A stretch of DNA of 64,000 bases, taken from assembly GCF_025753855.1 (NCBI RefSeq), contig NZ_JAOWPT010000015.1, positions 1 through 64,000 on the forward strand. The letters are read 5' to 3'. The notes beneath the pieces were generated by a model. The model searched no databases, was not told the origin of the DNA, and saw only the letters and a program-made list of their open reading frames with translations. The translations under genes were made by a program, and so were the position numbers. Each line of letters starts with the position of its first letter. Position 1 is the first letter of the stretch. Source of the stretch: Mesorhizobium sp. ZC-5 (GTDB lineage Bacteria; Pseudomonadota; Alphaproteobacteria; Rhizobiales; Rhizobiaceae). Shown here in pieces: positions 12,533-45,345 of the stretch.

Positions 12533-12658
12533 GTTTTGTTTAAATTCGGCCTCGGGCTGCTGACGAGCATCCAGCGTCGTGACAGTTTGGCGAAGAGTAG
12601 CGATCAAGGGGAACGCGGGGTATTCTGCTTCGTCTAGCTCGGTGGTTGTGAGGCCGAA

Positions 12659-13042
12659 ATGTCAGAATCTACTGTCAATATGCGCTACATGGTTGACGAC
12701 GTCGAAGCCGCCATCGCCTGGTATACGAGCCACCTTGGCTTTTCGCTTTTGTCGAACCATGCACCCGCCTTCGCGGACGTACAGCGCGGAGCGTTGCGGC
12801 TATTGCTTAGCGGGCCAACGAGTTCGGCTGGACGGCCGATGGCAGATGGCGAAACGCCCCACCCTGGCGGATGGAACCGCATCCATCTGGTTGTCGACGA
12901 TCTGTCTGCTGAAGTGGCCCGACTACAGGCCGCTGGGGTCCAGTTTCGCAATGACATTGTCAAAGGTCCCGGCGGCTCTCAGGTCCTGCTGGTCGACCCG
13001 TCCGGCAACTTCGTTGAACTGTTTGAGCAAGCGCGTAAATAA
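12659..13042 (+). CDS. VOC (glyoxalase-fold) family protein
   Basis: A 127-residue single-module protein of the vicinal oxygen chelate superfamily. It has the repeated beta-alpha-beta units, with YMVDDVEAAIAWYTSHLGF at the N-terminus and RIHLVVDDLSAEVARLQAAG ... VLLVDPSGNFVELFE at the C-terminus. The glutamate in NFVELFE is the usual metal ligand. A GAGG site lies five bases before the ATG. Substrate cannot be told from sequence; members include antibiotic-binding proteins and dioxygenases. It lies between the kinase and pstS and has no clear link with either. Confidence 0.85.
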   Translation: MSESTVNMRYMVDDVEAAIAWYTSHLGFSLLSNHAPAFADVQRGALRLLLSGPTSSAGRPMADGETPHPGGWNRIHLVVDDLSAEVARLQAAGVQFRNDIVKGPGGSQVLLVDPSGNFVELFEQARK

Positions 13043-13180
13043 TTGCCATCTGGTGGCAACCGAACTCCATCGACATGGCGACACAACTCCGCTACGAACC
13101 CTTCTCCGGTTGCTGAAACCGAAGGTCATGGCCGACGTTACGCTTCGGCGCGCCATGCTGCCATGTTCGGCCCATCCTGC

Positions 13181-13220
13181 CTGACATTTATGTGCAACAG
13201 AACTGTCATCCAACTGTAAC
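13181..13220 (+). promoter_or_regulatory. Pho box (PhoB binding site) of the pst operon
   Basis: A near-consensus Pho box, CTGTCATCCAACTGTAAC, lies at 13203-13220, with 7-mers CTGTCAT and CTGTAAC spaced 11 bases start to start. A further CTGACAT at 13181 is exactly 22 bases upstream, and a weak unit (GTGCAAC) at 13192 fills the phase, so up to two PhoB dimers could bind. The site ends 70 bases before the pstS start. Confidence 0.85.
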
Positions 13221-13290
13221 AAACGAGGGCTAAGGACACCTCGGGTGCCTAGTGGGGCGTCCGGAAAAATTCCGAGCAGGAGTAGGCGAA

Positions 13291-14295
13291 ATGAATAAAA
13301 CTCTTTTGGCGACCACCGTCGCCGCATTTGCGATCGCCGCGTCAACTGGACTTGCGGCTGCGCGCGATCAGATCCAGATCGTCGGTTCTTCGACGGTCTT
13401 CCCCTTCACCACCGCTGTCGCCGAGAAGCTCGGCCAGGGCGGCAAGTTCAAGACCCCCGTCGTTGAGTCGACCGGTACGGGCGGCGGCATCAAGCTGTTT
13501 TGCTCCGGCGTCGGCGAAAACACCCCCGACTTCACCAATGCCTCGCGCGCCATCAAGGACAGCGAACTTGAAACCTGCAAGGCCAATGGCGCTACGCCGG
13601 TCGAGATCAAGGTCGGTTTCGACGGTATCGTGCTTGCGAATTCGAAAGCCGGCACCGTTGTGGATCTGACCAAGGAGCAGATTTTCAAGGCGCTGGCCAA
13701 GAACGTTGCCGTCGACGGCAAGGTCGTGCCGAATCCCTACACCAATTGGTCGGATGTCGATGCTTCGTTGCCTGCCACCAAGATCGAAGTGCTCGGCCCG
13801 CCCCCGACCTCAGGCACGCGCGACGCTTTCGTTGAACTGGTCATGCTCGAAGCCTGCCAGGACGAAGTTAAGGCTGCCAATGAAAAGGCTTGCCCGGAAA
13901 TCCGCGAAGACGGCGCTTTCATCGAAGCGGGTGAAAACGACAACCTGATCGTTCAGAAGCTTGAAGCCAACGCCAATGCTTTCGGCGTTTTCGGCTTCTC
14001 GTTCCTCGACCAGAATGCCGACAAGCTGCAGGGCCACAAGGTAGATGGCGTCGAGCCGACCTTCGAAAACATCGCGTCCGGCGACTACAAGATTTCGCGC
14101 TCGCTGTTCATCTACGCCAAGAAGGAACATGTTGGTGTGATCCCTGGCATCGAAGAGTTCATCGCCGAGTATACGTCGGACGCCGCCTGGGGTCCCGAAG
14201 GCTATCTCGCCGACAAGGGCCTGATCCCGCTGCCGGACGCCGAACGAGCCAAGTCGGCCGAGGAAGCCAAGGCTCTCAAGGGCATGGGTTCCTGA
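13291..14295 (+). CDS. pstS: Phosphate ABC transporter, substrate-binding protein PstS
   Basis: A 334-residue periplasmic binding protein with a signal peptide (MNKTLLATTVAAFAIAASTGLAAA). Phosphate-binding features are visible: IQIVGSSTVFPFTTAVAEKL, STGTGGGIKLFCSG, DFTNASRAIKDSE and GPPPTSGTRDAFVEL. This is the larger alphaproteobacterial PstS form, with extra cysteines in CSG, ETCKANG, EACQDE and KACPE. A GGAG site precedes the ATG at 13291. It is first in pstSCAB-phoU-phoB, under a Pho box, and is followed by an attenuator hairpin. Confidence 0.95.
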   Translation: MNKTLLATTVAAFAIAASTGLAAARDQIQIVGSSTVFPFTTAVAEKLGQGGKFKTPVVESTGTGGGIKLFCSGVGENTPDFTNASRAIKDSELETCKANGATPVEIKVGFDGIVLANSKAGTVVDLTKEQIFKALAKNVAVDGKVVPNPYTNWSDVDASLPATKIEVLGPPPTSGTRDAFVELVMLEACQDEVKAANEKACPEIREDGAFIEAGENDNLIVQKLEANANAFGVFGFSFLDQNADKLQGHKVDGVEPTFENIASGDYKISRSLFIYAKKEHVGVIPGIEEFIAEYTSDAAWGPEGYLADKGLIPLPDAERAKSAEEAKALKGMGS

Positions 14296-14308
14296 TCAGA
14301 ATTTCAAT

Positions 14309-14336
14309 CGGCCCGGGATGTCTCTGTTCCGGGCCG
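14309..14336 (+). terminator. Hairpin between pstS and pstC (attenuator)
   Basis: A perfect stem CGGCCCGG (14309-14316) pairs with CCGGGCCG (14329-14336), extended by two weaker pairs, and is followed by GTTT. It lies 13 bases after the pstS stop and 62 bases before pstC. The T tract is short, so it probably stops only part of transcription or protects the pstS message, leaving more binding protein than permease. Confidence 0.6.
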
Positions 14337-14398
14337 GTTTCCATGCTTTGGTTTGGCCGGTTGGCAGATTTTTTAAGTAGCGATTGCAGGTTTCGGCA

Positions 14399-15787
14399 AT
14401 GGTCACCTATCTGGTTTTCGCGCTGATTGCTCTTTTCCTGGCCGCATATTTTGCCGGGCGATCTAAAGCGTTGTCGAGTGTGGGCGGGGAAACCTCCAAA
14501 CTTCACTCGCTTCCCAGTCAGCACGGCATGTTCCTGGCGCTGGTCAGCGTCGTGCCCGCGCTGCTGGCGCTCGTAGTCTGGTCGCTGATCACGCCCGGCA
14601 TCGAATCCAATATCGTAAAAAGCAACTTCGCCACCGAACTCGGTGGCCTGGGTATTCCTCAGGTAGAAGCCTTCATACGTGACGCCCGAGCCATCGCCTT
14701 CGGTGGCGTGGTGGGCTTCACCGACGCGACCAAGGAGGCGGCTGCCACCTTGTACAAAACGGTCCATGCGAGAAGCGTGTGGGCCATCGTGGCTGTTTGT
14801 GCGGTTCTGGCGTTCGCCGGTTTCGTCTGGGGATACGGGAAAATCGCACCGGCGTATCGGGCGCGACACATAGTCGAGCGTATCGTACGGATCTTTCTCA
14901 TTGCGTGTTCCGCGGTCGCGATCCTGACCACGATTGGCATCGTGCTCTCGCTGATCTTCGAATCGCTTCGGTTCTTCCAGCAGGTGCCAATCCACAAGTT
15001 CCTTTTCGGCACGCATTGGAGCCCGCAGAGCGCATTCACCGGCGCTGGAACGCAACAGGGTGCTGTCGACCCGAACATTTTCGGCATGGTTCCGCTTTTT
15101 GTCGGAACGCTGTTGATCACTTTCATCGCGATGCTGGTTGCAGCGCCGACCGGTCTCATGGCTGCGATCTATCTTTCGGATTACGCTTCCAAACCGGTTC
15201 GCGCCGTCGCTAAGCCAATCCTTGAAATCCTGGCCGGCATTCCGACGGTGGTCTATGGTTTCTTCGCCGCGCTTACCGTAGCGCCCTTCTTTCGTGGCCT
15301 CGGCGAAAGCGTCGGACTGGGTGTAGCGTCTGAATCGGCGCTGGCCGCCGGCGTCGTCATGGGCATCATGATCATCCCCTTCGTTTCGTCGCTTTCCGAC
15401 GATGTCATCAATGCAGTACCTCAGTCTTTGCGTGATGGCTCAGCAGGACTTGGTGCGACGAAGTCGGAGACCATTCGCAAGGTGGTGTTGCCGGCAGCAC
15501 TTCCTGGCATTGTTTCCGCCATGCTGCTTGCTGTCAGCCGGGCTATCGGCGAGACCATGATCGTCGTGATGGCCGCCGGTCTCGCCGCCAACCTGACAGC
15601 AAATCCGCTCGAGGCCGTCACCACTGTCACGGTTCAAATCGTAACCCTGCTGGTCGGCGACCAGGAATTCGACAGCGCCAAGACGCTCGCCGCGTTCGCG
15701 CTCGGTCTTGTGCTCTTCTGCATCACACTCGCGCTGAACATCGTCGCGTTGCGCGTCGTCCAGAAATATCGGGAACAATATGACTGA
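14399..15787 (+). CDS. pstC: Phosphate ABC transporter permease PstC
   Basis: A 462-residue inner-membrane permease. The first half is the rhizobial N-terminal extension (DUF3708 type), with membrane segments at the very start and near residues 45-65 and 125-145. The second half is the binding-protein-dependent permease domain, with FVGTLLITFIAMLVAAPTG and the EAA loop region at SLRDGSAGLGATKSETIRKVVLPAALPG. It forms the channel with PstA. ATG at 14399 has GCAGG eight bases upstream; a TTG five codons earlier is less likely. It overlaps pstA by eight bases. Confidence 0.95.
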   Translation: MVTYLVFALIALFLAAYFAGRSKALSSVGGETSKLHSLPSQHGMFLALVSVVPALLALVVWSLITPGIESNIVKSNFATELGGLGIPQVEAFIRDARAIAFGGVVGFTDATKEAAATLYKTVHARSVWAIVAVCAVLAFAGFVWGYGKIAPAYRARHIVERIVRIFLIACSAVAILTTIGIVLSLIFESLRFFQQVPIHKFLFGTHWSPQSAFTGAGTQQGAVDPNIFGMVPLFVGTLLITFIAMLVAAPTGLMAAIYLSDYASKPVRAVAKPILEILAGIPTVVYGFFAALTVAPFFRGLGESVGLGVASESALAAGVVMGIMIIPFVSSLSDDVINAVPQSLRDGSAGLGATKSETIRKVVLPAALPGIVSAMLLAVSRAIGETMIVVMAAGLAANLTANPLEAVTTVTVQIVTLLVGDQEFDSAKTLAAFALGLVLFCITLALNIVALRVVQKYREQYD

Positions 15788-25659: not shown

Positions 25660-26385
25660 CTAGATAGCCTTGAGTTTGACCCTTGCCTCCAGTTTTTCGG
25701 TATCTTCCTTCCGCTCGCTGTAGCGGTCGGTGAGATAGTCGGAAACGTCCCTGGTCAGGAGCGTGAACTTCATGAGTTCCTCCATGACGTCGACAACGCG
25801 GTCGTAATAGGAAGACGGCTTCATGCGGCCTGCTTCGTCGAATTCCTGATAGGCCTTGGCAACCGAAGACTGGTTGGGGATCGTAATCATCCGCATCCAG
25901 CGGCCGAGAACCCGCATCTGGTTGACTGCATTGAAGCTCTGCGAACCTCCGGAAACCTGCATGACAGCCAGAGTGCGGCCCTGCGTTGGGCGGATCGAGC
26001 CGACAGCAAGCGGTATCCAGTCGATCTGCGATTTCATGACACCGCTCATCGCGCCGTGGCGCTCCGGACTGCTCCAGACCTGGCCCTCTGACCAGAGTGA
26101 CAGTTCGCGCAGTTCCTGCACCTTGGGGTGATCGATCGGCGCGCCGTCGGGCAGGGGAAGACCGGTCGGATCGAAGATGCGGGTTTCCGCCCCGAAATGT
26201 TCGAGCAGGCGTGCTGCCTCCAGTGTCAGAAAGCGGCTGTAGGACCGCTGACGCAGCGAACCGTAGAGCAGCAGGATACGCGGCTTGTGGCGCGAGAAAG
26301 GCTTGGACAGCTGGGCGGTGTCGGGGAGCTGAAGCGCTTCGTCCAGGATGTTGGGCAGGTCAGGCAACGCGGTTTCCTTCGGCAT
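25660..26385 (-). CDS. arsH: Organoarsenical oxidase ArsH
   Basis: A 241-residue NADPH-dependent FMN reductase-fold protein. The phosphate-binding loop reads [17 protein letters not shown]; other ArsH marks are [23 protein letters not shown] and [26 protein letters not shown]. ArsH oxidises trivalent methylated or aromatic arsenicals to less toxic pentavalent forms. The ATG at 26385 overlaps the 3' end of the Grx-type arsC by 26 bases, so the genes are coupled. It is the last gene of the ars operon. Confidence 0.95.
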
Positions 26386-26782
26386 CAATCAGAAGCTCGC
26401 CATCTTCCTTGGCGAACGGGCCCTTCTGCGGGACAGGGAGAATTTCGAGAACGACTTCCGACGGGCGGCTGAGCCGAACACCCCACGGCGTCATCACGAA
26501 CGGTCGGTTGATCAGGATTGGGTGCTCCAGCATGGCGTCGAGCAACTCGTCGCCGGTCAGCGTCGGGTCATCGAGGCCAAGGTCTGCGTAGGGCGTAGCT
26601 TTTTCCCGGATCGCCTCTCGGATCGTGAGGCCTGCCTTGCTGATGAGGTCCATCAGCACCGGGCGCGTCGGTGGCGTCTTCAAGTATTCGATGACGGTCG
26701 GTTCGATGCCAGCGTTGCGGATCAGCGCCAGCGTGTTGCGCGACGTGCCGCAATCGGGGTTGTGATAGATGGTGACGTCCAT
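26360..26782 (-). CDS. arsC: Arsenate reductase, glutaredoxin-dependent type
   Basis: A 140-residue ArsC of the thioredoxin-fold, glutaredoxin-dependent family. The catalytic cysteine is in [21 protein letters not shown] near residue 11. Substrate-binding arginines lie in [23 protein letters not shown]. It reduces arsenate to arsenite for export. Two ATGs are adjacent; 26782 is seven bases from AAGGA. The second-last codons of acr3 overlap it (ATGATGG). It is the second arsenate reductase of this operon and belongs to a fold unrelated to the first. Confidence 0.93.
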
Positions 26783-27843
26783 CATGCGATCCTTTCGGCT
26801 TCCTTGGTGGCTGTGACGGCCGCGCCGCGCTCGTACCAGTCCTTGCTGCGGTTCACGATCCAGACGACCGACAGCATCACCGGGACTTCGACAAGCACGC
26901 CGACGACGGTAGCGAGTGCAGCTCCGGAGCTGAAACCGAACAGGCTGATGGCAGCGGCGACAGCCAGCTCGAAGAAGTTCGACGCGCCGATCAGTGCCGA
27001 CGGTCCCGCCACACAGTGCTGTTCGCCCGAGATGCGGTTGAGCAGATAGGCCAGCCCGGAATTGAAATAGACCTGGATCAGGATCGGAACGGCCAGCAGT
27101 GCAATGATCATCGGCTGCGCGATGATCTGCTCGCCTTGGAAGCCGAACAGCAGGACAAGCGTCGCCAGAAGCGCGACGAGCGACAACGGCTGCAAGGTCC
27201 GCAGCAGATTGTCGAGTGAGGCCTGGCCGCCAGACGCAAGAAGGCTGCGGCGCACGAGCTGGGCGATGATGACGGGGATGACGATGTAGAGGACCACCGA
27301 CAGGACAAGCGTGTCCCATGGCACCGTGATAGCCGACAGGCCAAGCAACAGACCGACGATCGGGGCAAAGGCGACCACCATGATGGCATCGTTCAGGGCC
27401 ACTTGCGACAGGGTGAAATGTGGTTCGCCCTTCGTCAGGTTCGACCAGACGAACACCATGGCCGTGCAGGGGGCTGCAGCCAGGATGATCAGTCCGGCGA
27501 TGTAGGAATCGATCTGCGCCTCCGGCAGATAGGGTCTGAACAGCCAGCCGATGAAGAGCCAGCCGAGCAGCGCCATCGAGAAGGGTTTCACGGCCCAATT
27601 AATGAAAAGCGTCACGCCAATGCCGCGCCAGTGCTGGCCCACTTCACGCAGTGCGGCGAAGTCGATTTTCAGCAGCATCGGGATGATCATCAGCCAGATC
27701 AACGCCGCCACGGGGATGTTGACCTTGGAGATCTCGGCAGCCCCGATCATTTGGAAGACGCCGGGCATGAGGTGGCCAAGTGCAATGCCGACGACAATGC
27801 ACAGGGCAACCCAAATGGTCAGATAGCGTTCGAATGTCGACAT
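26782..27843 (-). CDS. acr3: Arsenite efflux transporter Acr3
   Basis: A 353-residue, ten-segment membrane transporter of the ACR3 (BART) family. The essential cysteine is in AAPCTAMVFVWSNLTKGEP, and VNIPVAALIWLMIIPMLLKIDF and SNFFELAVAAAISLFG are further family marks. It expels arsenite using the proton motive force. It begins two bases after the stop of the LMW arsC gene and ends in an overlap with the next arsC, so reduction and export are made together. Confidence 0.96.
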   Translation of the reverse strand: MSTFERYLTIWVALCIVVGIALGHLMPGVFQMIGAAEISKVNIPVAALIWLMIIPMLLKIDFAALREVGQHWRGIGVTLFINWAVKPFSMALLGWLFIGWLFRPYLPEAQIDSYIAGLIILAAAPCTAMVFVWSNLTKGEPHFTLSQVALNDAIMVVAFAPIVGLLLGLSAITVPWDTLVLSVVLYIVIPVIIAQLVRRSLLASGGQASLDNLLRTLQPLSLVALLATLVLLFGFQGEQIIAQPMIIALLAVPILIQVYFNSGLAYLLNRISGEQHCVAGPSALIGASNFFELAVAAAISLFGFSSGAALATVVGVLVEVPVMLSVVWIVNRSKDWYERGAAVTATKEAERIA

Positions 27844-30297: not shown

Positions 30298-30990
30298 TCA
30301 GAGCAAAGCAATCGGCTCGATCATGCTCGGCAGGTCATAGGGCTGCCCGTCCTTGGCCGAAGTGTTAACCTCCCGGCCGACACGGTAGAATTCCAAGTCT
30401 CCGTCGAGGTTTTCGTGCAGCAACTGCTTGGCGTCCGCCGCTGGCGTCTCGGGATCGATCCAGGCATCATAGACATCGGGATCGAGGATGACCGGCTGGC
30501 GATCGTGAAGCTGGCGCATCGTCTCGCCTGCCGGCATCGTGATGATGCAGCAGCTGGTCACGCCGAGCTTGTCGTTGTGCGCCCAGATTCCGGCGAAACT
30601 GAATGGCTGGTGCTCGGGCAGGAAAATGTGCCAGGGGTCACGTCCCTTGTCGGCCGGGCTGATCGTCCACTCGTAGAAGCCATCGGCGGGGATCAGGCAG
30701 CGTTTCAACTTGAACGCATCCTTGAAGGCACCTGAAGTCTCGGTCGTCTCCGCCCGGGCGTTGAACATAGCGCCCTTTTGCAGCTCCTTTGCCCACCACG
30801 GCACCAGCCACCAGCGGCCCTCGCGTAGTTTGTGGCCACCATCCTCGCCTGGCGTAACGAACAAGACATCCTGTGTCGGCGCGATATTGTAGCGCGGCTG
30901 GGTATTGCGTCCGACGTCAGCAGGCGCGGTCAGACGATAGAGCCGGTGGATTTCCGACCAAGGAAGATATCGAGTGTAGCGTCCGCACAT
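30298..30990 (-). CDS. SOS response-associated peptidase (SRAP, YedK/HMCES family)
   Basis: A 230-residue SRAP protein starting MCGRYTRY, where C2 becomes the catalytic residue after removal of the first Met. Other active-site parts are RYNIAPTQD (N), CLIPADGFYEW (E) and ITMPAGETMRQLHDRQPVIL (H). SRAP proteins form a covalent link with abasic sites in single-stranded DNA and shield them at replication forks. It stands alone, about 9 kb from the imu mutagenesis cassette. Length and motifs are complete. Confidence 0.95.
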   Translation of the reverse strand: MCGRYTRYLPWSEIHRLYRLTAPADVGRNTQPRYNIAPTQDVLFVTPGEDGGHKLREGRWWLVPWWAKELQKGAMFNARAETTETSGAFKDAFKLKRCLIPADGFYEWTISPADKGRDPWHIFLPEHQPFSFAGIWAHNDKLGVTSCCIITMPAGETMRQLHDRQPVILDPDVYDAWIDPETPAADAKQLLHENLDGDLEFYRVGREVNTSAKDGQPYDLPSMIEPIALL

Positions 30991-31227: not shown

Positions 31228-32406
31228 GTGACCACGGAAGCATTCAGACCATCGAAGATCCCTGTGTGCCAGCAACAGACGAGAAGGGTTACGCGCCAAT
31301 CCGATGGCGATGCCTTCTACCAGATTTATTCAGGCGGCATGCGTGCTGCCGAAGCAAGCGACAATGCTTGGCACATCGAGCCGGTTCTGGACGGCGGGCA
31401 CCCTTGCGCAAAGGGGTTCATGCCAACTGCGATGATGCAGGGTTTTTTCAGGCAGCAAGCCTTCACGTTCATCGCCTTCCATCGGATCGGCTGGTTTAAG
31501 GGAAACTACCATTCCAGCTGGTGCCCCTTCATCCCTGGCCAAACAAACCATCTGCAGGGACCGGCCGATCTCTGGAGCAATGTAGCGGGCAACATCTCAC
31601 GGGCCCGGACGGCGGGCGACCTCGCAGCTATGGCTCAACCTACCCGTGAGCAGATCGCTGCACGCCTCGATAACCGTACCGAGGCTGAGCGCCTTGCCAG
31701 CTCCATCAGCCTGAGCCTTCGCAACATGGACATCAGCGTGGAGCAGATTGCCGAGTTCTATAACGAGCAACTGGTCAATCATATGGCGTCCGATAGCCTG
31801 GAGGGAAAGCGCTCATCATCGACCCTAGATGAGACCCTGTTCGCTCATGTCCATTCCTTCTTCATGCATCTTGGCGCGGCGCGGGACTATCTTGCGGCCT
31901 TATGCGCGCTCAGGATTGGCAAGGACCCGCAGAAGGTCGATTCATTCGCACGGCTTGCGGAAGCAGTCCGGCCAGAGCATTTTGCTGCAGACGATCTACT
32001 CCAGTTGCTCCAAGCGAGAGGCTACTTTCGGCAAAAGCCGACCAGCTCCGTCAAATTTGAATCGGCTGGCTGGATGGAAGAGGTCACAGACTTGCGGAAC
32101 GAATTCATGCACCGGCGGCCCTATGGCGACCGCTTCATCGAGCGCATGGGTTTCGCCCAACCCATTGACCGCGAAGCTGGCCTGTATCGATATGTCAGAC
32201 CGATTTTGCTCAAAAACGCGGAGGACGATGTACAAAATGTGATTTTGCGCCACTACCGGGAGATGACTGCTCTGTGTCACGCGGCCGCCGCTACATCGGG
32301 AAACGACCTCTCTATACTCACATTGACCGACGCCGAGATTATCTCTGTCGAATTCGAGGGCGAACAAACTGCCCAATCCGCAAGCTCTTCGGACGCGGCG
32401 ACTTGA
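31228..32406 (+). CDS. Uncharacterised protein with HEPN-type RN-x3-H motif
   Basis: A 392-residue soluble protein I do not recognise. The GTG at 31228 has AGGA six bases upstream. The first 134 residues are compositionally odd (many W, H, P, C) and may not be translated: an ATG at 31630 begins a more ordinary helical region (MAQPTREQIAARLDNRTEAE). From there the protein is nearly all helix, and near residue 290 it has VTDLRNEFMHRRPYGD, the R-N-x3-H pattern of HEPN ribonucleases. It lies alone on the plus strand of the putative defence island. HEPN assignment is inference from one motif and the helical setting. Confidence 0.5.
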   Translation: MTTEAFRPSKIPVCQQQTRRVTRQSDGDAFYQIYSGGMRAAEASDNAWHIEPVLDGGHPCAKGFMPTAMMQGFFRQQAFTFIAFHRIGWFKGNYHSSWCPFIPGQTNHLQGPADLWSNVAGNISRARTAGDLAAMAQPTREQIAARLDNRTEAERLASSISLSLRNMDISVEQIAEFYNEQLVNHMASDSLEGKRSSSTLDETLFAHVHSFFMHLGAARDYLAALCALRIGKDPQKVDSFARLAEAVRPEHFAADDLLQLLQARGYFRQKPTSSVKFESAGWMEEVTDLRNEFMHRRPYGDRFIERMGFAQPIDREAGLYRYVRPILLKNAEDDVQNVILRHYREMTALCHAAAATSGNDLSILTLTDAEIISVEFEGEQTAQSASSSDAAT

Positions 32407-33057: not shown

Positions 33058-34173
33058 TTAGTCGGCGTTCAGGACGCCTGCCGCTTTCAGGATTGCCCTC
33101 TCGTGTCGCCGCTGAGGGTCTTTCCAGTAGCTGAGCGTTCCGATGTAGCGGACGATGGCATGTTCGTCGGCATCATCTTCGATTGGCGGAATGCGGAGGT
33201 TCAGGAATGTGAAAAGCGCTATGCGGTAAAGCGAGCTTGCAAGTAGCAGCAACGGCACCTCATTGATCGCCAATTGCTCGGCCGTCACTTCGTTCCCGTG
33301 AAGAAAAGCGTTTCGAAGGGCATACGTCCGGTGGCAGAGTTCGGAAGCGACCGTGCGGGCGGTCGTCTGCTTTCCAATCTTAACTTCGACCGCCTGGTCG
33401 GCACACCTCAAATCCAGCCAAACTGCCCTATCGAGAACATTCAGGACCTGAGTCTCACCCACGCTGCCTCCAGGGCCGGGATGAAGCAGGATTTCGAAGG
33501 CGCTAATCCATAGAGTAAGCAACCGGCCGACATCGTAGAAACTGTACTCCAGCCCCCCGGGCATCAACATGGCAGCGCGAGCCATGTTGAGGGAACGGAA
33601 TAGCGCGCGGTCCTCCCAGCTTGCCTCTTCGCAACTGAACCGCCGATGCCACCGGAGGAGGACCTCGTCGAAGAGTGGCCCGTCCACACTATATGGCTCG
33701 ACGGCATGCTGCGGCAGCCCCGCATCGATCTGCCCGCGAAACTTTTCCACGTCGTGCGAGCCGAGCATAGCGGGCGTCTGACCGATCAAGTCCTTACCAT
33801 GTCGGTCGACCATCCACGGATAGATCGAGAAGGTCTCGGCCCACACAGGAGCGCCCATCCCGCCACCGTGTGTCACCTGCAGGGCGCGGGCATTAGGTAT
33901 CGTGGACACGGCTAGGAGGTCCCGAAAACCAGCAATCGCAGAAGTGTTTCGGTACGCTTCCTTGGCCTCTCGCCTGATGATTAGGACCGTTGGGGATACA
34001 GGATCACCGAACGCGTCCGTGAAGCGGTCGAGGAATTCACCGATGCGCGGATGCTCGGCGATTGCGTCAACAATTCGGTTATCGTCGACAGCGGTGACCG
34101 CTATGTCGCCATTACCGATCGGCTCTCGTAGCCTGAGGTTTGGCAGGACCAAGATCGGTATCCACTCACTCAT
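33058..34173 (-). CDS. HEPN-type protein, ApeA-like layout
   Basis: A 371-residue protein. The N-terminal 160 residues are beta-rich (WIPILVLPNLRLREPI, VTAVDDNRIVDAIAEHP). The C-terminal half is helical: LLTLWISAFEILLHPG ... CHRTYALRNAFLHGNEVTAEQL, where R-N-A-F-L-H near residue 286 is the HEPN catalytic pattern. Beta domain plus HEPN resembles ApeA-type abortive-infection proteins, though no close match is claimed. ATGs at 34179 and 34173 both follow GGGGAAGG; 34173 has the better spacing. It lies just after a broken gene on the same strand. Confidence 0.65.
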   Translation of the reverse strand: MSEWIPILVLPNLRLREPIGNGDIAVTAVDDNRIVDAIAEHPRIGEFLDRFTDAFGDPVSPTVLIIRREAKEAYRNTSAIAGFRDLLAVSTIPNARALQVTHGGGMGAPVWAETFSIYPWMVDRHGKDLIGQTPAMLGSHDVEKFRGQIDAGLPQHAVEPYSVDGPLFDEVLLRWHRRFSCEEASWEDRALFRSLNMARAAMLMPGGLEYSFYDVGRLLTLWISAFEILLHPGPGGSVGETQVLNVLDRAVWLDLRCADQAVEVKIGKQTTARTVASELCHRTYALRNAFLHGNEVTAEQLAINEVPLLLLASSLYRIALFTFLNLRIPPIEDDADEHAIVRYIGTLSYWKDPQRRHERAILKAAGVLNAD

Positions 34174-34223
34174 ACCCATACCTTCCCCACATGCAGCGCG
34201 CCCGGGGTACTTGCTTCCCGCCG

Positions 34224-34651
34224 TTATCCACGCGGAACATGCGGTCCGTAATTCGCTTTGCACCCTGGACAATAATATATGATGCGGCCCGCTCCCCCCT
34301 TGCTCCTGTCCTGAACAACCTCCAGCTAGTCCCCTCGCTTTTCGCATTTGGGACAAATCGGCCGACCTTTTGGATTGCCAGCTTCATCCGCGAAGAAGCG
34401 GAACTGCCCGCAGTCGACGAGTTGTATCGCTTTGAAGGGCAATTCAGACCGAAGACGAGAGACTTCTTCATGCTTGTCTCGAATTACGCCTTCAGCCTCG
34501 ACTGGGGCTGCCTTTGCGGTGCAAGGGCATCCATCATCTCAATGATCTTCAGACGAAGCTCGGCCGTGTCGAACTGATGATCGACATCCCGCAACTCCTT
34601 CGCCAGACCGATTGCGGCTGTAATTGTTGCAAGTGCTCCGGCGGCAACCAT
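34224..34651 (-). pseudogene. Broken zinc-ribbon protein gene (frameshift plus stop)
   Basis: The start is normal: GGGAGG, then ATG at 34651, MVAAGALATITAAIGLAKEL, a familiar N-terminal helix of a small prophage/island protein family. After codon DALA, near 34516-34522, the frame is broken by what looks like a one-base loss. The next frame continues the family pattern (EAEGVIRDKHEEVSRLRSEL ... RFFADEAGNPKGRPICPKCEKRGD), meets a TAG at 34326-34328, and then goes on with YYCPGCKANYGPHVPRG to a proper TAA at 34224. With both lesions repaired it is 142 residues with two CPxC zinc knuckles. Two lesions make a sequencing error unlikely. Confidence 0.75.
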
Positions 34652-34784
34652 GGCCATCCTCCCGATCAACGGCATTAAGCATTTACCCAGGCTATGACGA
34701 AGGGCAAGAGCGACGCAGGCCGCACGGCGTAGTCGGTCTCACCTCTGATTATCGGATATAACGTAGATCCGATTCTCCGTGCCG

Positions 34785-37700
34785 ATGACCATGTTCGACG
34801 TTGACCCCAAACAAATAGAAAGCCTCGAAGCCAAAGACCTAGTGCTGCTGCTGCGCCGTCTGCTGTATGCTGAGGCTCAGGCCGCTGGTGTCCCCCTGTC
34901 CGGGGTTTCGGTACCGCTGCAGATCACTGTATCTGATGGCGGCGAAGACGGTCGCATCGTATGGACGGGCGGCAAGAATTCAACTGACTTCCTTCCGGGG
35001 CGCAGCACCTTCTTCCAGTGCAAAGCCAGCAAGATCGGACGCGCTGGTTGGAAAAAGGAATGCTGGGACAAGTCGACTCATCGCAAAGGCCGAGCAAAAA
35101 AGCTCACTCCGGCTATGACTTCGATCATCGCCCAAGGCGGCTGCTATGTCGGGTTCACGACCGAAGCGCTCACCGGGGAGAAGCGTGACGACTACATCAC
35201 CGGCATGGAGGAAGCGGTGATCGAGGCTGGAGGTAATCCCACAAGGCTGAGAAAGATCGAGCTCTATGACGCAAACCAAATCGCACTCTGGGCCGCCCAT
35301 CATCCTGCGGTCGCCATCTGGCTATCCGAGAAGTCCCATGGACAATCGTTGGCAGGTTTCCAGACAGTTGAGGCATGGGGCACACAACCAGATTTCAGCA
35401 CCGAGTACGTCGAGGACGGCGATAGCCGCTACATCATCGGGACGGCCAAAGAGCGCGATCGTGGTGGCGACAACAAGGCGATCGCGAAAGTGGCATGGGA
35501 GCGCATCCTCTCGCATGTTGCTGAGCCTGGCCGGCTGGTGCGCGTGGTTGGAACCTCCGGCCTTGGCAAGAGCCGCTTCGTTTACGAGTCCCTCAGAGCG
35601 TCGTCGTCCCAACTAGCCGAGATGGTCCAATACCGCGGAGTCGTTGCCGAGTATAAGGCGGTGCCCACGACCTTGCTCTCGGTTGCGACCAAGCTGGCTG
35701 AAGACAGCAATCGAACCTTACTGGTGGTAGACGAGTGTCCGCGCGACGTCGCAATCGAACTCGGCAAACAAGCTGCGCGCGCCGGAAGTCTCCTTAGCGT
35801 CATCGCGATTGATACTGACGACCAGCCGCTCGAGGATAGCGAAACGAACCTTCATATTGCGCTTTCCCCTAGCAGTGCAGATCTCATCGGGAGCATCATC
35901 CGCAAAACGAACCCAACCCTCGACAAGAGCACGGTCGAGCGACTGCGCGAGCTCTGCGGCGGCTTCCCGCGATTTGGCATCCTGGCCGCAAAGAGTGTCG
36001 ATGCTGGAACATCGCTGTTCGAAACCGCGGATGACGTGATCAATCGCATTCTTGTGGGTGCGAAAATCGAAAACGCCGAGGAGGTGAGGGCCCTCCAATG
36101 CCTTAGCCTATTCGAGTCACTGTCGATCGCGGCGACTTCGCCGGTGGAATTGGATGTCGTCGCGACAGTGCTCGGACGGATGCCGGGCGATGCAATGTAC
36201 GAGCATCTGACCAAGGCACAGCAATTCGACATCGTCGGGCGAAAAGGCGATCGGCTCAGTGCTCAGCCTCTTCCAATCGCCGTCAAACTGGCGATGCGCC
36301 GGGTCGCCATGATGCGGCCGAGTCTGCTCGTTCGCTTTATCGCCGCAGCCAGCGACGAGCTTGCATTGGCCCTGCTTCGACGCTGTCGACACCTCGACAA
36401 GTCACCGGTGATCCTCGAAGTCGGCAACCTGCTTCTGAGCGACGATGATCTTCTGGGAAAAGACGATGCTATCCTGACACCTCGTGGCGCGGACCTGCTC
36501 GATGCCCTAGTCCATGTGTTGCCGGATCGTGTGGCCCAGCATCTCGACCACTTCGTACTCCCACTCGACGACGCTGTCTTGGCGGGAGCTAAGGGTGCGA
36601 GACGCAGTTTGGTGGAAGCAGCTGGCAAGCTGGTGTTCAGGCGTCGGTCCTTCGGCATCGCCGCGCGGCTGTTGATGCGACTAGGCGTCAACGAAAACGA
36701 AGACTGGTCGAACAATGCCACCGCGCTCTTCAAACAGCTATTTCAGCTCTATCTAAGCGGAACCGAGGTTCCGCCTCCTGACCGGTACGCCATTCTCGAT
36801 GAGGGTCTGGCGAGCGACGACCTCGCCACCGTGAACCTGTGTGTCGAGGCGTTGGCCAGCGTTTTCAGCAGCGACGTGATCCGGTTGGGAGACTACGGCG
36901 AGATCGGGTCCTCCCCGCCTTTGAAGGACTGGACGCCCGAGACGTACGATGAAATTCACGACTTTTATCGCGACGGCCTCCGACGGCTGGCCTCAATCCG
37001 CCAGAAGCACCCCGAGCTTGCCGAGCGTTGCGAGGATATCCTGGCGAAGTCGGCGAGGCTCATGCTTAGTACCGGCATTTACAAGGAGTACGCCGACGTC
37101 GTCTCCACAATCGCGAGCGAAAAGGGTGGCTGGCCGGATGCCATCGAAAGTGTTGGCGACTGGCTATACTTTGACCGCACGGACACGGGTAGCGAACGCG
37201 CCGCGTTCGTGCGGGAACTTTATGACCGCCTTTTTCCATACGAGCCGATCGATCGGGCCATTCTGTTCACCAAGTTCTGGCAATCGGATATTCGCGATCC
37301 GGATTTGCGATATGCTGACGAGGACCGAGACTACGACTACTCGCAACGCGCAGCACGCGAGGTCGCCCGTGAGATCTCCGCCAGCCCGGAGCTGACGTTA
37401 GCAGCGGTCCGCCGTATGGTAGTGATGGACCTCAGGACAATCTATCCCTTCGCCGATGAGCTGGGCGAGAAAGCTGGTAACCGCGAAGAGGCGTTCCACA
37501 CGGCACTGGAGGCTGTCGCGGAGTCCAATGGCAGCATACAAATGCTGCGGGGCCTGCTACACGGGATCGATCTCGTCGATTCAGCGATGGCCGACAAGTG
37601 TCTCGCTGAAGCATCGCGCCGCCTGACCGGAACCAAACAATCGATAATCAACCTCCACTCGGCCTTGTCTAAGCAGGACCGTGCGCGGCTCGATTTGGCG

Positions 37701-38639
37701 ATCGCCGACCTGAACTCTGGGCGTATTGCGCCCGTGGACTACGCCTATCTCTCCTATGGTCGCGGGCTGGATAACTTGCCGCCTGAGGACGTGGCTGTTC
37801 TACTGCGCGCCCTGGCTGAGCGGGGAAGCGATGGCGTCTGGACCGCGCTCGAAGTGGCAATGATGTATCGTTACGGAGAACCGGCACCCGTCGCACATGC
37901 GCACGAAATCGCTGCGCTACTCGTCCTGCCAGACCTCGCCGAGCACGCGCGCGAGCGGCGACGGGACTCGCACACATTCAACAGTCTGGTCGATCGGGTA
38001 CGCTCCTCGATCGGTATCAGCGAGCGGTTCGCCGAAGGCCTTGCCCAACAGTTGGTGAGGCTAACGCAGAGCACGGACTACAACCTTGTTCACACACTGG
38101 TCGATGCGATGCGTCATGTCGTCGAAGTGCTCGTTGCGGTCAAGCCGGTAACGATCTGGAGTCACATTGCGCGGTTCTTCGAAACGGCGACCCCGATCGA
38201 ACGTGGCCGGCTCAAGCAAATGATCGGTCCGGATCGCGATCGCTTCGATCGAACCAGGCATACCGGACCCGGCCCTCTGTTCGGGGTCCCTCAGGACCCT
38301 ATCCTGAAATGGGCCGACGAAGCGGCGGATCGACCCCCGTTGCTGATCGACTTCTTCCCCATCCTCAGCGACTCCGACGACGGTGTCCGGGAATGGCACC
38401 CTGCGCTTGAGGCCATCGCGACGCGTTACGGCACGCAGGAAGCGTTCCTAAAGGCCCTTAGTGGTCGCATGCGCCCGTCGTCATGGTCTGGTTCAATCGT
38501 GCCGTTACTCGAAGTTTATCTGGCCCCGCTTGAAAACTGGTACAAGCATCCCGTCCGTGAACTCGCGAAGTGGGCAAAAAGCATGCACCAAAGCCTCGAG
38601 GTTCAAATCGAGCGAGAGCAACAGTACGATGATAGTTAA
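34785..38639 (+). CDS. PD-(D/E)XK nuclease - STAND NTPase fusion, Avs-like
   Basis: A 1284-residue protein. Residues 10-185 look like a restriction-endonuclease domain: DGGEDG at 51-56 and FFQCKAS with QCK at 78-80 give the D...QxK arrangement of Mrr-like nucleases. Next comes a NTPase domain with Walker A VGTSGLGKSRF (256-263), Walker B TLLVVDEC (about 312-318), and a helical lid with LRELCGGFPRFGILAAK. From about residue 450 to the end the sequence is helical and repeat-like (TPR/HEAT type). Effector, STAND NTPase and sensor repeats in that order, and this length, are the layout of Avs antiviral proteins. The start is uncertain: GTG 34779, ATG 34785 and ATG 34791 are in frame and none has a clear ribosome site. 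Confidence 0.75.
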   Translation: MTMFDVDPKQIESLEAKDLVLLLRRLLYAEAQAAGVPLSGVSVPLQITVSDGGEDGRIVWTGGKNSTDFLPGRSTFFQCKASKIGRAGWKKECWDKSTHRKGRAKKLTPAMTSIIAQGGCYVGFTTEALTGEKRDDYITGMEEAVIEAGGNPTRLRKIELYDANQIALWAAHHPAVAIWLSEKSHGQSLAGFQTVEAWGTQPDFSTEYVEDGDSRYIIGTAKERDRGGDNKAIAKVAWERILSHVAEPGRLVRVVGTSGLGKSRFVYESLRASSSQLAEMVQYRGVVAEYKAVPTTLLSVATKLAEDSNRTLLVVDECPRDVAIELGKQAARAGSLLSVIAIDTDDQPLEDSETNLHIALSPSSADLIGSIIRKTNPTLDKSTVERLRELCGGFPRFGILAAKSVDAGTSLFETADDVINRILVGAKIENAEEVRALQCLSLFESLSIAATSPVELDVVATVLGRMPGDAMYEHLTKAQQFDIVGRKGDRLSAQPLPIAVKLAMRRVAMMRPSLLVRFIAAASDELALALLRRCRHLDKSPVILEVGNLLLSDDDLLGKDDAILTPRGADLLDALVHVLPDRVAQHLDHFVLPLDDAVLAGAKGARRSLVEAAGKLVFRRRSFGIAARLLMRLGVNENEDWSNNATALFKQLFQLYLSGTEVPPPDRYAILDEGLASDDLATVNLCVEALASVFSSDVIRLGDYGEIGSSPPLKDWTPETYDEIHDFYRDGLRRLASIRQKHPELAERCEDILAKSARLMLSTGIYKEYADVVSTIASEKGGWPDAIESVGDWLYFDRTDTGSERAAFVRELYDRLFPYEPIDRAILFTKFWQSDIRDPDLRYADEDRDYDYSQRAAREVAREISASPELTLAAVRRMVVMDLRTIYPFADELGEKAGNREEAFHTALEAVAESNGSIQMLRGLLHGIDLVDSAMADKCLAEASRRLTGTKQSIINLHSALSKQDRARLDLAIADLNSGRIAPVDYAYLSYGRGLDNLPPEDVAVLLRALAERGSDGVWTALEVAMMYRYGEPAPVAHAHEIAALLVLPDLAEHARERRRDSHTFNSLVDRVRSSIGISERFAEGLAQQLVRLTQSTDYNLVHTLVDAMRHVVEVLVAVKPVTIWSHIARFFETATPIERGRLKQMIGPDRDRFDRTRHTGPGPLFGVPQDPILKWADEAADRPPLLIDFFPILSDSDDGVREWHPALEAIATRYGTQEAFLKALSGRMRPSSWSGSIVPLLEVYLAPLENWYKHPVRELAKWAKSMHQSLEVQIEREQQYDDS

Positions 38640-39879: not shown

Positions 39880-40641
39880 ATGCGTGGTGCCGAGAACCAT
39901 TCCATTATCGAAGCTCTGCAGGAGCAGATTCGAAACCTTGAAGGCGGCAAGGGCCATCGCCGGGCCGTGCTTCCCTTCGGAATCGAAGAACTGGACCGAC
40001 GTCTTCCCCAAGGCGGACTGACGCTCGGCGCACTGCATGAGGTGGCAGGTGGCGGCAACGGCGCGCTCGATGGCGCGGCCGCGGCGCTATTTGCCGCTGG
40101 AATCGCGGCACGAACGCGCGGCAAGGTTTTGTGGTGCGTGACGCGGCCGGATCTGTTCGCGCCCGCGATCGCCCAAGCCGGGCTACCTCCGGACCGTGTG
40201 ATCTATGTCGAAGCAGGCGACGAGAAATCGGTTCTGGCCTGTTTCGAAGAAGGGCTTCGGCACGTCGGCTTGGGCGCGGTTGTGGCGGAAGTGGCGCGCC
40301 TTTCGATGACGTCGTCGCGACGATTGCAGCTTGCCGCCGAAAGATCCGGTGCAATCGGCATCGCCATCCGTCGCTGGCGTCGCCAGGTTGAGGCCACCGA
40401 TTTCGGGCAGCCGACGGCTTCGGTCACCCGTTGGCGGGTATCAGTTCTGCCGTCACGACCGCTTCCCGTCCCAGGTATCGGGCGTGCGCGATGGCAGCTT
40501 GAACTGATCCGCAGTCGTACCGGCGAAACCCTCGATCTTGAAGTGGAAGCCTGTGATGCCAAGGGTCGTCTCGCTCTTCCTTCCAAGCTGGTCGACCGAC
40601 CGGCTCAGAAGGAAATTGGGCGTCGCCTCGCTTCCGCCTGA
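39880..40641 (+). CDS. imuA: ImuA, mutagenesis accessory protein
   Basis: A 253-residue RecA-fold-related protein. The ImuA pattern is VLPFGIEELDRRLPQGGLTLGALHEVAG, with GLGAVVAEVARLSMTSSRRLQLAAERSG later. The P-loop position lacks the GK[ST] of RecA, as is common in this family. With ImuB and DnaE2 it performs error-prone bypass synthesis after DNA damage. It is first in the cassette, behind the SOS box, and overlaps imuB by 86 bases. Confidence 0.92.
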   Translation: MRGAENHSIIEALQEQIRNLEGGKGHRRAVLPFGIEELDRRLPQGGLTLGALHEVAGGGNGALDGAAAALFAAGIAARTRGKVLWCVTRPDLFAPAIAQAGLPPDRVIYVEAGDEKSVLACFEEGLRHVGLGAVVAEVARLSMTSSRRLQLAAERSGAIGIAIRRWRRQVEATDFGQPTASVTRWRVSVLPSRPLPVPGIGRARWQLELIRSRTGETLDLEVEACDAKGRLALPSKLVDRPAQKEIGRRLASA

Positions 40642-42079
40642 TAAGCCTTTGGTGCTTGTGGGGCGGGATGGGCAGCGACGGGTGGTGGTTTCTGCCGACC
40701 GCACCGCATTTGACGCAGGTCTGCGGGTTGGCATGCCCGCGACGAAAGCGAAGGCATTGGTGCCTGACTTGATTGTCATGGACGCCGAGCCCGCAGCCGA
40801 TGCCGATGCATTGGATCGGCTCGCTTTGTGGGCGCTGCGGCGCTATGCGCCCGTGGTCGCTGCCGACCCTCCCAACGGCTTGGTGATCGACACCACAGGG
40901 GCCGACCATCTTCACGGCGGCGAACAGGCGATGCTGGCGGATTTGGTCGCACGATGCGGCAGCGCCGGATTGGCAGCACGAGCAGCGATCGCCGATACCT
41001 GGGGGGCGGCCCATGCCGTGGCGCGCTTCGTCAGGCGACCAACCAGCCTGGTTCTTTCAGGCGGTATTAGCACCGCACTTGCCGACCTGCCGATCGCAGC
41101 CCTTCGGCTGCCGCATGAGATCGTCGACAGTTTGCGCGTTCTCGGCTTCGAGCGGATCGGCGAGGTCATGGCGCTGCCGCGGGCCCCGCTGACACTGCGC
41201 TTTGGCCCCGAACTCGGGCGGCGTCTCGATCAGGCTTTGGGCCAACTCGCTGAACCCATCGACCCACTGCGGCAGCCGGATGCGATCGAGGTCCGCCGAG
41301 CGTTCGGCGAGCCGATCAGTGCCGCCGAGACGATCGCACAATACATCGGCAAACTCGTCGAAGGACTGTGCCGTGAACTGGAGGCGAAAGGACAAGGTGC
41401 GCGACGCCTCGATCTCCTTTTGCATCGGGTCGACAACCGTATTGAGGCAATCCGCATCGGTACGGCATTGCCCGTTCGTGACGCCAAGCGCCTGACGCGT
41501 TTGCTGTGCGATAGGATCGAGAAGATCGATCCGGGTTTCGGCATCGAACTGATGCGGCTGGCAGCACCCTTGGCTGAACCGCTTTTCGCGAAGCAGACAA
41601 TTTCGTCCCTGATCGAAGAACCCGAGGTCGAGATTTCCGGGTTGATCGATACGCTCTCCAATCGCGTCGGCGAAGAGCACCTCTACCGTTTCGCGCCGGT
41701 CGCTAGCGACGTTCCCGAACGCTCGGTCAGGCGGGTAGCACCCGCCGCGCCCAACGTCGGAGAATCCTGGCCGGATCATTGGCCGCGGCCAGCACGGCTG
41801 CTTCCATTGCCAGAGCCGATCGAGGCATTGGCGTTGCTGCCTGACCATCCCCCCGCAAGCTTCACCTGGCGCGGCATCCGCCGCCGCGTCAGGCGCGCCG
41901 ATGGCCCTGAGCGCGTCTTCGGCGAGTGGTGGAAACGCGACGCGGAATTGGAAGCCGTTCGCGATTATTTTCAGGTCGAGGACGATGGGGGAGAGCGTTT
42001 CTGGATTTATCGCGCCGGCGACGGCGAAGATGCGGCAACCGGATCGCACCGCTGGTTCCTGCATGGAATCTTCGGATGA
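40556..42079 (+). CDS. imuB: ImuB, Y-family polymerase-like protein
   Basis: A 507-residue DinB-like protein. It begins [18 protein letters not shown], then [26 protein letters not shown] and [16 protein letters not shown]. ImuB proteins lack the acidic triad of active Y-family polymerases and act as hubs joining the beta clamp, ImuA and DnaE2. The C-terminal region ([28 protein letters not shown]) is the usual ImuB tail. The ATG at 40556 follows GGAAG. Its stop overlaps the dnaE2 start. Confidence 0.92.
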
Positions 42080-45000
42080 CGACCCATCGTTATGTCGAGC
42101 TGCAATGCACGTCGCACTTCTCGTTTCTGCGCGGTGCGAGTTCGTGTGAGGAATTGTTTGCACAGGCCGCGGTGATGGAAATGTCAGCACTTGCCGTTGT
42201 CGACCGCAACAGTCTTGCTGGCATCGTTCGCGCCCATGAGGCGGCAAGGACCACGGGTGTCAGGCTTGTCGTCGGATGTCGCCTCGACCTTGTCGAAGAC
42301 ATTTCTCTGCTGGTCTACCCAACTGACCGCGCTGCCTATTCTCGCCTCTGCCGGCTGCTTTCGCTCGGCAAGAAACGGGCGGGCAAAGCCAAATGCACAC
42401 TGCATTGGGAGGACGTCGTTGCCTACGGCGAAGGATTGATCGCCATCCTCATTCCGCATCAGCCGGACGACAACTGCGCTTTTTGGCTTCGCCGTCTGGG
42501 GGAGGCTTTCGGCGACCGTGCCTATTTGGCGCTGACGCTCCGCCGTCGCCCGAACGACCAGCTCAGGATCCACCAACTGTCCAACCTCGCTGTGATGGCT
42601 GGTGTGCCGACGGTCGTCACCAACGATGTGCTGTTTCATGTTCCGCAACGCCGCATGCTGCAGGATGTCGTGACTTGCGTCAGGCACAACTGCACCATCG
42701 ACGATGCCGGATTCCGGCGCGAGCGCCATGCCGATCGCTACCTCAAGCCGTCCGACGAGATGGCGCGCCTGTTCAGCCGCTATCCGGAAGCTCTGGCTCG
42801 GACACGCGAAATCGCCGACCGCTGCCGCTTTTCGCTTGATGAGTTGAAGTATCAATATCCCGAGGAGCGGACGTTTCTCGAACTGACCCCACAACAGGCG
42901 CTGGAAAAGCTCACCTGGGAAGGCGCAGCAGAACGCTATCCTGAAGGCTTGCCGGACAAGGTCGTCGCGTCACTGAAGCATGAACTGCAACTGATCGAAC
43001 GGCTGGAATACGCACCGTACTTCTTGACGGTCAATTCGATCGTGCGATTTGCTCGCAGGCAGGACATCCTGTGCCAAGGTCGCGGATCGGCCGCCAACAG
43101 CGCAGTCTGTTTCGTGCTCGGCATCACCTCGATCGACCCAGACATCAACGATCTTTTGTTTGAGCGCTTCGTGTCGGAGGAACGCAGGGAACCTCCCGAC
43201 ATCGATGTCGATTTCGAGCACGAGCGGCGCGAGATCGTCATGCAATGGGTGTTCGACACCTATGGACGGGATCACGCAGCCCTTTGTTCCACCGTGATCC
43301 GCTATCGTGCTAAGGGCGCATTGCGCGATGTCGGCAAGGCACTCGGTCTGCCCGAGGACCTGATCAAGATGCTGTCATCGCAGGTCTGGGGCTGGTCGGA
43401 AGAAGGCGTCGAGCCGAAGCACGCGGAGGATCTTAATCTCAATCTCGGTGATCGCCGTCTTCGGCTGGCGCTCGATCTGGCGCGGCAACTGATGGGTGCA
43501 CCCCGGCACCTTTCGCAGCATCCGGGTGGCTTTGTGTTGACCCACGATCGTCTCGACGACCTGGTTCCGATCGAACCGGCCGCGATGAAGGACCGCCAGG
43601 TCATCGAATGGGACAAGGACGACATCGACGCGCTGCGTTTCATGAAGGTCGACTGCCTGGCGCTCGGCATGCTGTCATGCATGAAACGTTCGTTTGATCT
43701 CCTGGCGCAGCACAAGGGCGTCGCGCACGATCTGGCGACTATCCCGCAGGAAGACCCAACGACCTACGCGATGATCCGCAAGGCTGACACACTCGGCGTC
43801 TTCCAGATCGAATCCCGGGCACAGATGTCGATGCTGCCGCGCATGAAGCCACGAACCTTTTACGACCTGGTCATCGAGGTTGCCATCGTCCGGCCCGGCC
43901 CGATCCAGGGCGACATGGTCCATCCCTACCTTCGTCGTCGCGAGGGCAAAGAAGAAATCCACTATCCGAAGCCAGAGCTCGAAAAGGTGCTCGGCAAGAC
44001 GCTGGGTGTCCCGCTGTTCCAGGAGCAGGCCATGCGCGTCGCGATCGAATGCGCCGGCTTTACTCCGGGTGAAGCCGACCAACTCCGAAAATCGATGGCG
44101 ACCTTCAAATTCACTGGCGGTGTCTCGAAGTTTGGTGCCAAGCTTATCGCCGGGATGATCGCCAACGGCTATGAGCGTGAATTTGCCGAAAAGACGTTCA
44201 GGCAACTCGAAGGATTCGGGTCCTATGGATTTCCCGAAAGCCATGCGGCGTCCTTCGCACTGATCGCCTACGCTTCGTCATGGATGAAATGCCATCACCC
44301 CGACGTCTTCTGCGCCGCACTCCTCAATGCGCAGCCGATGGGGTTTTACGCGCCAGCCCAGATCGTGCGAGACGCGCGCGAGCACGGTGTCGATGTTCGC
44401 CCGGTGTGCGTCAACACCTCCCGTTGGGACTGCACGTTGGAACCGACTGGAGATGATAATAGCTTCGCGGTTCGCCTGGGGCTGCGAATGGTCCGCTGCC
44501 TCACCAACGACGATGCCGCCACCATCGTCGCGGCGCGCGCCGATGTGCCATTTGCGTCCGTCGACGATCTCTGGCGTCGTGCTGCTGTCCGAACTGCTTC
44601 CCTGGTGCAATTGGCCGAAGCTGATGCGTTTCGTCCGTCGCGGGGGCTGGCCCGTCGCGAGGCGCTTTGGGCAATCAAGGCGTTGAGGGACGAGCCGTTG
44701 CCGCTGTTTGCCGCGGCCTCGGCCCGGGAGGCGGCTGTGCCTGAACTTGACGAGCCTGCAGTTCCGTTGCGGCCAATGACGGCGGGTGGCGAAGTCGTGG
44801 AAGACTATGGACATGTGGGGCTGACGTTGCGGGCGCATCCGGTGAGTTTTCTTCGCGGCGACCTTACGCAACGCCGTATCGTAAGCTGTGCCGCGGCGAT
44901 GCGGGCACGCGACGGGCAATGGCTGGAGGCTGCGGGCCTCGTCCTTGTCAGGCAGCGCCCGGGATCCGCCAAGGGCGTCATGTTCATCACCATAGAAGAC

Positions 45001-45345
45001 GAGACTGGCATCGCCAATCTCGTCATCTGGCCACAGGTTTTCGAGAAGAACCGTCGAACGATTCTTGGATCGAGCATGCTGTCGGTCCGCGGCCGCATCC
45101 AGCGCGAAGGTGACGTTGTCCATCTGGTCGCTCGGCATCTCAAGGACCTGTCGGGAGAACTTGCCAGTGTTGGAGAACGTGATGCAGGGTTCCGGCTCCC
45201 CCACGGCAGCGGTGACGAATTTCATCATGGCAGCCCGACACCGGATTCACGCGGATTGCCGTCAAGGGGCACGAAACCGCGCGACATTTACATTCCTGAT
45301 CTGCACATCGACACGATCAGGGTAAAGCCGAGGGATTTCCATTGA
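42076..45345 (+). CDS. dnaE2: Error-prone DNA polymerase III alpha subunit DnaE2
   Basis: A 1089-residue C-family polymerase, the usual length of DnaE2 and shorter than replicative DnaE1. The N-terminal PHP domain begins [18 protein letters not shown]. Palm motifs are visible: [18 protein letters not shown], and [12 protein letters not shown] with the catalytic aspartates. The OB-fold region ([20 protein letters not shown]) is near the end. It performs mutagenic gap-filling and bypass synthesis with ImuA and ImuB. The ATG overlaps the imuB stop (ATGA). Confidence 0.95.

Follow-up and report, generated by a model that had tools for sequence, protein, structure and literature searches.

A probable single-gene, NLR-like antiphage sensor of the PD-lambda-4_A family in Mesorhizobium sp. 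ZC-5

The DNA analysed here, hereafter the window, is a stretch of 64,000 nucleotides from Mesorhizobium sp. ZC-5 (contig NZ_JAOWPT010000015.1, positions 1 to 64,000), and the gene in question lies at 34785..38639 of its forward strand. Its product is quite probably an NLR-like antiphage sensor of the PD-lambda-4_A family, acting as a single-gene system with a triggered nuclease. This assignment is carried by a three-part anatomy of nuclease, STAND NTPase and helical arm, by the conservation of the catalytic and Walker residues, by membership in a named family, and by the exchange of the N-terminal domain among relatives.

The open reading frame (ORF) extends without interruption from 34779 to 38639 (+) with a GTG start (1286 aa), and offers alternative ATG starts at 34785 (1,284 aa) and 34791 (1,282 aa). 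The latter is the probable start of the gene, because the close relatives at loci L003 and L004 begin at its counterpart in the alignment (MFDV/MFEV); residues are nevertheless numbered from ATG 34785 throughout. The protein occurs as a single copy in its own genome (6.34 Mb, 68 contigs). Its features are:

34785..38639, +, nuclease-STAND-solenoid gene of the PD-lambda-4_A family (open frame, PADLOC PDLC03991, full-length rhizobial relatives)
34785..35354, +, PD-(D/E)XK (Mrr-like) nuclease domain, residues 1-190 (fold and residues)
34935..34949, +, presumed catalytic D51...D55 (DGGED)
35016..35024, +, presumed catalytic Q78-C-K80 (QxK)
35427..36104, +, STAND NTPase core and helical domain, residues about 215-440
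35550..35573, +, Walker A, GTSGLGKS, residues 256-263
35718..35735, +, Walker B, LLVVDE, residues 312-317
35958..35969, +, GGFP, residues 392-395, of the GxP type known from STAND NTPases
36141..36263, +, probable winged-helix domain, residues about 453-493 (helix-helix-strand-strand in the structure model)
36267..38636, +, C-terminal alpha-solenoid, probable sensor, residues about 495-1284

A preliminary description, made from the sequence, had named a D-G-G-E-D-G...F-Q-C-K arrangement and Walker A and B motifs, and these observations were confirmed: the frame is intact and DGGEDG (51-56), FQCK (77-80), GTSGLGKS and LLVVDE all lie where it had placed them, while GGFP, behind Walker B, is an addition. 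In alignment A1, D51, G53, D55, Q78, K80 and E92 are invariant in 20/20 rows, as are G256, S258, G259, G261 and K262 of Walker A, D316 of Walker B, and G393 of GGFP, and in the N-terminal alignment A3 the residues D51, G53, D55, Q78 and K80 are invariant in 33/33 rows; the rows of either alignment were picked for coverage of the respective region. Given this invariance, the motifs of the window protein are not a product of chance. A regular-expression scan found the nuclease motif in 55 and the Walker A motif in 56 of 59 rows; this set includes the window sequence two times, and L057 and L004 in it are one record. The nuclease pattern was missed in L046, L051 and L063, all of which stand in A3 with the five invariant residues, and in the truncated L080; the Walker A pattern was missed in L080, too, and in L055 and L056, both members of alignment A4, where the glycines and the lysine of Walker A are invariant in 34/34 rows.

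The restriction-endonuclease fold supposed in the preliminary description was indeed found at the N-terminus, with the PD-(D/E)XK core and the D...(E/Q)xK residues in place, and by analogy this domain probably cuts DNA when an invader is sensed. In one relative (L109), about 300 additional residues precede the nuclease domain and start with a stretch that looks by eye like a helix-turn-helix (HTH), and in genome G128 (loci L018 and L025) the gene is split into two adjoining ORFs, one for the nuclease part and one for the NTPase part. Behind the nuclease follows a P-loop core with Walker A and Walker B. A GxP-type motif behind the NTPase core is part of the definition of STAND proteins, and in the E. 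coli branch of the family its proline is substituted (GNAR). In the structure model the STAND order of NTPase, helical domain, winged helix and repeats was recovered; the winged helix is based on structural alignments with Apaf-1 and CED-4 that extend to model residues 329-342. Apaf-1, CED-4, Dark and NRC4 are among the best 50 rows listed for the NTPase fold, which is thus of the STAND type, as had been proposed. The long helical remainder is likewise nearly all helix in the model. For Avs proteins the preliminary description had given a C-terminal sensor of TPR-like repeats; the fold of the present arm looks nearer to HEAT-repeat than to TPR proteins among the matches listed, which for the solenoid are HEAT proteins, several of them with a high root-mean-square deviation. 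The C-terminal repeats act as the sensor in the usual model for STAND proteins, as set out in passages of PMC7159879.

Some relatives align to the window protein only from about residue 190-250 onward. Of four such partial matches inspected, L102 and L104 carry the usual nuclease motif, while L101 and L103 possess a different N-terminus; in a fifth (L135) the open frame starts about 60 residues ahead of Walker A. The protein of V. halioticoli (L101, an open frame of 1,380 residues) shows a DUF676 serine-esterase match at 22-154 (E 2.8e-6, 27.5 bits, cut-off 20.3) with an HSLGG motif, followed by the NTPase and the C-terminus, and it shares 28% identity over 1,187 columns with protein A of E. 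coli and 31% over 1,117 with the nuclease-bearing L034. A search with L101 matched 57 records, 14 of them over at least 80% of its length, and most of those listed start only at residue 271; the long matches include plasmids of Lelliottia (98% of the length, annotated as 'alpha/beta fold hydrolase') and Enterobacter roggenkampii (97%). The N-terminus of the Moraxella relative L103, with its DGEIIGFQSK stretch, is possibly a different nuclease. As the enzyme is swapped while switch and arm are kept, the N-terminus reads as the output of the protein.

The PADLOC model PDLC03991 (PD-Lambda-4_A) matches residues 1-1282 on positions 1-1275 of 1283 (E 1.3e-81), and two shorter models of the same name match as well; at E up to 1 the scan returned no other model and hence no Avs profile, the library presumably containing Avs models. 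Avs4 (8dgf) was also absent from the matches listed in sequence searches of the PDB (for one search the best 60 of 406). The protein of E. coli strain R32_14_1F (L037) fits PD-Lambda-4_A at 1283/1283 positions, with the next gene fitting PD-Lambda-4_B at 303/303, and the window protein is 23% identical to this protein A over 1,076 columns (BLAST, E 1.7e-43) and 19% identical in the multiple alignment. According to passages of Vassallo et al. 2022 (PMC9519451), each of 21 candidate E. coli systems, taken as a set, reduced plaquing by its selecting phage. The identity of the PADLOC model with the PD-lambda-4 of that study rests on the name; the family matched is thereby an antiphage system, and not one of another process. 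The earlier interpretation therefore stands as regards a nuclease-STAND-sensor protein, encoded by a single gene and probably antiphage, but not as regards membership in Avs. The gene is filed, from its sequence matches, as a B-less member of the PD-lambda-4_A family, neither as Avs nor as a complete PD-lambda-4 system, the latter because gene B was not found in its own genome.

By analogy with Avs1-4, whose nuclease effectors are switched on by phage proteins, the triggers including terminase and portal (passages of PMC12931631), the following course is proposed for the window gene. At rest, the HEAT-like solenoid and the winged helix would keep the STAND NTPase closed and nucleotide-bound. 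A component of the invader, most likely a phage protein, would bind the solenoid, upon which the NTPase would open and the protein oligomerise, gathering several Mrr-like nuclease domains that would then cut DNA. The phage would thus be stopped and the cell probably killed. In its mode of action the protein would resemble Avs4. Ligand, oligomer, DNA target, cell death and defence are all assigned to the window gene on this comparative basis.

Several results weigh against such a sensor. ORC/Cdc6 rows score about equal to Apaf-1 and CED-4 for the NTPase, and these proteins likewise have an NTPase, a helical domain and a winged helix, i.e. the first three STAND parts. For the nuclease, Avs4 ties with FokI, MspJI, N.BspD6I and EcoT38I at Z values that the tool rates as middling, and no Pfam nuclease family was found for 20 members (E up to 1; among 25 of 27 families listed). 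No defence gene was found in the annotated flanks of the relatives L009, L010 and L033. Furthermore, PD-Lambda-4_B (PDLC03992) has no match in the window protein's own genome at E 0.001, B having turned up, among the loci compared (some with short flanks), in L037, L038 and L043 alone, all of them from E. coli, and three genes X, Y and Z were not found in the window, though close rhizobial relatives have them downstream of A:

L003, 11943-14500, X-Y-Z genes after the A gene
L004 (the same record as L057), 11926-15205, X-Y-Z genes after the A gene
L076, 9924-13198, X-Y-Z genes after the A gene

Since both B and X-Y-Z are absent, the window copy may depend on a missing partner, in which case it would be an orphan, either inactive or relying on a gene at another place in the genome. 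B directly follows A in E. coli L037, and of 5,426 E. coli genomes, 151 have a near match to A (131 of them over at least 80% of the length) and 149 one to B (145 of them over at least 80%), the two genes being tallied separately; X occurs in L031, too. On the other hand, a second E. coli A (L039) has no B within its flank, 4/5 listed E. coli records, and L038 as well, have B annotated in the form of two ORFs, R. gallicum (L005), from the window's own clade, has no X, Y or Z match, and the frame of the window gene is intact, so that an orphan appears unlikely. X is weakly like the CAP12/Pycsar TIR domain (PF10137, E 0.0042, below the cut-off) and is split in two in L004, as is Z in L003. By eye, Z contains an RSAFLH stretch reminiscent of HEPN.

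The window protein is 53-57% identical over its full length to proteins of rhizobial plasmids, and in the tree it falls into a five-row rhizobial clade (support 100) within a group of 20 rows (100) drawn from Alphaproteobacteria, Burkholderiales and Cyanobacteria, with the E. coli rows at a great distance; the tree comprises 47 chosen rows, was built by a quick method with SH-aLRT (Shimodaira-Hasegawa-like approximate likelihood ratio test) support only, and has some long branches. The distribution is patchy. The gene is rare: 2 of 101 relatives match, namely the own genome and, with a weak partial match, one other; the PADLOC model matches in 11/385 genomes of the class (own included), but in two of these (G135, G395) the match is weak and comes from a different large protein (loci L023, L024). 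A profile of NTPase and solenoid matched 30/398 genomes of the phylum, with more than half of it covered in seven (own included), the C-terminal quarter in an eighth and a short part in 22. Some relatives have defence genes nearby, namely a CBASS phospholipase and a Piwi protein at L004, and AbiE and restriction genes at L005, and at E. coli L037 an integrase next to ssrA is close by.

Relatives are also found in 42/72,556 plasmid records and in 17 contigs of a viral collection, and the gene may therefore serve conflicts between mobile elements, the same mechanism being directed against plasmids or other mobile DNA instead of phages. The E. coli system is, however, named for its selection with phage lambda, following the naming rule in the sections seen of PMC9519451, and no plasmid phenotype was met in the portions of the literature consulted; this target appears slightly less likely than the orphan state. 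A true Avs protein, i.e. a divergent Avs4 sensing phage portal or terminase, is improbable in view of the PADLOC result at E up to 1, of the PDB sequence searches, and of the NTPase and solenoid rows, which are Apaf-1, CED-4 and ORC and HEAT proteins, respectively, although absence from the rows listed excludes nothing. Least probable is a MalT-like STAND regulator whose restriction fold binds DNA without cutting: early work on bacterial STAND proteins dealt with them as regulators of transcription (passages of PMC7159879) and L109 has its HTH-like stretch, but D51, D55, Q78 and K80 are invariant in 33/33 rows, as catalysis would lead one to expect, and some relatives carry a hydrolase domain in place of the nuclease.

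As for the surroundings, the preliminary description had placed the gene in a region with HEPN genes and debris, which was not borne out: at E 0.01, Pfam gave no match for either of the two closest ORFs tested on the upstream side (33058-34356 and 31228-32406), and downstream follows a mutagenesis cassette. The neighbouring features, with those beside the relatives, are:

39880-45345, +, mutagenesis cassette imuA-imuB-dnaE2, immediately downstream (Pfam for imuB and dnaE2, match to an annotated ImuA gene for imuA)
30298-30990, -, SOS-associated peptidase (SRAP) gene, upstream
L003 3819-7937, L005 3886-7950 and L037 1787-5533, second large-protein family

In the related genome G011 the cassette is kept at 71% DNA identity, with an ORF read as dinB upstream of it at the place of the window gene. 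ORF 33058-34356 (-; 432 aa) has no family match and has relatives in 12 plasmid records, mostly rhizobial; by eye, an RNAFLH stretch near its end is reminiscent of HEPN motifs. ORF 26360-27598 (-) ends in an arsenate reductase (ArsC) of 140 residues, which is preceded by about 270 others, possibly through a fusion or an over-long start. The second large-protein family (1248-1372 aa, with an HTH in L003) recurs beside A in rhizobia and E. coli, with a short stretch common to both. In 3/5 listed E. coli records the match to A is broken up, with insertion sequences (IS) of the IS3/IS21 families between the pieces, and such interrupted copies may hint at a cost of carriage.

PD-lambda-4 came from a blind selection, and the portions of the literature consulted offer no mechanism for it; the sections seen of a 2023 review (PMC10952713) contain a single mention of it, among the P-loop NTPases, and none in the PD-(D/E)XK row. 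Once it is seen to combine a nuclease, a switch of the Apaf-1 kind and a sensor arm, with effectors that can be exchanged, it becomes a testable bacterial NLR. The window contributes a member without B, from a deeply separate branch whose relatives occur in rhizobia, Burkholderiales and Cyanobacteria. Along these lines, we would give even chances to the broader proposition that PD-lambda-4_A proteins form a clan of bacterial NLRs apart from Avs, with an Apaf-1-type NTPase, a HEAT-like arm and varied killing domains (Mrr-like nuclease, serine esterase, possibly others), spanning Alpha-, Beta- and Gammaproteobacteria, Cyanobacteria and haloarchaea, with the window gene in a branch working without B.

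Among known systems, protein A of E. coli PD-lambda-4 has the same full-length match to the A model, a near-equal length (1283 aa) and, in the alignment, nuclease motif, NTPase and C-terminus following one another in the same order; it differs in its far tree branch, its low identity (19%/23%, as above) and its GNAR in place of GGFP, and the E. coli system in its gene B, which the genome of the window protein lacks. The esterase-bearing relatives share NTPase and solenoid (window protein and L101 are 21% identical over 779 columns, E 9e-32), while L101 and the Lelliottia and Enterobacter roggenkampii plasmid proteins have a serine esterase where the window protein has its nuclease. Avs4 combines a STAND NTPase with a long helical C-terminus in a single gene, as does the window protein, and both begin with a nuclease of restriction fold; they differ in that no sequence match was found and that the window protein's structural rows are those named above. 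Apaf-1, CED-4 and the plant NLR NRC4, finally, share the STAND NTPase fold at 10-14% identity in those rows and carry a CARD or a coiled coil at the N-terminus, whereas the window protein is bacterial and has a nuclease in that position.
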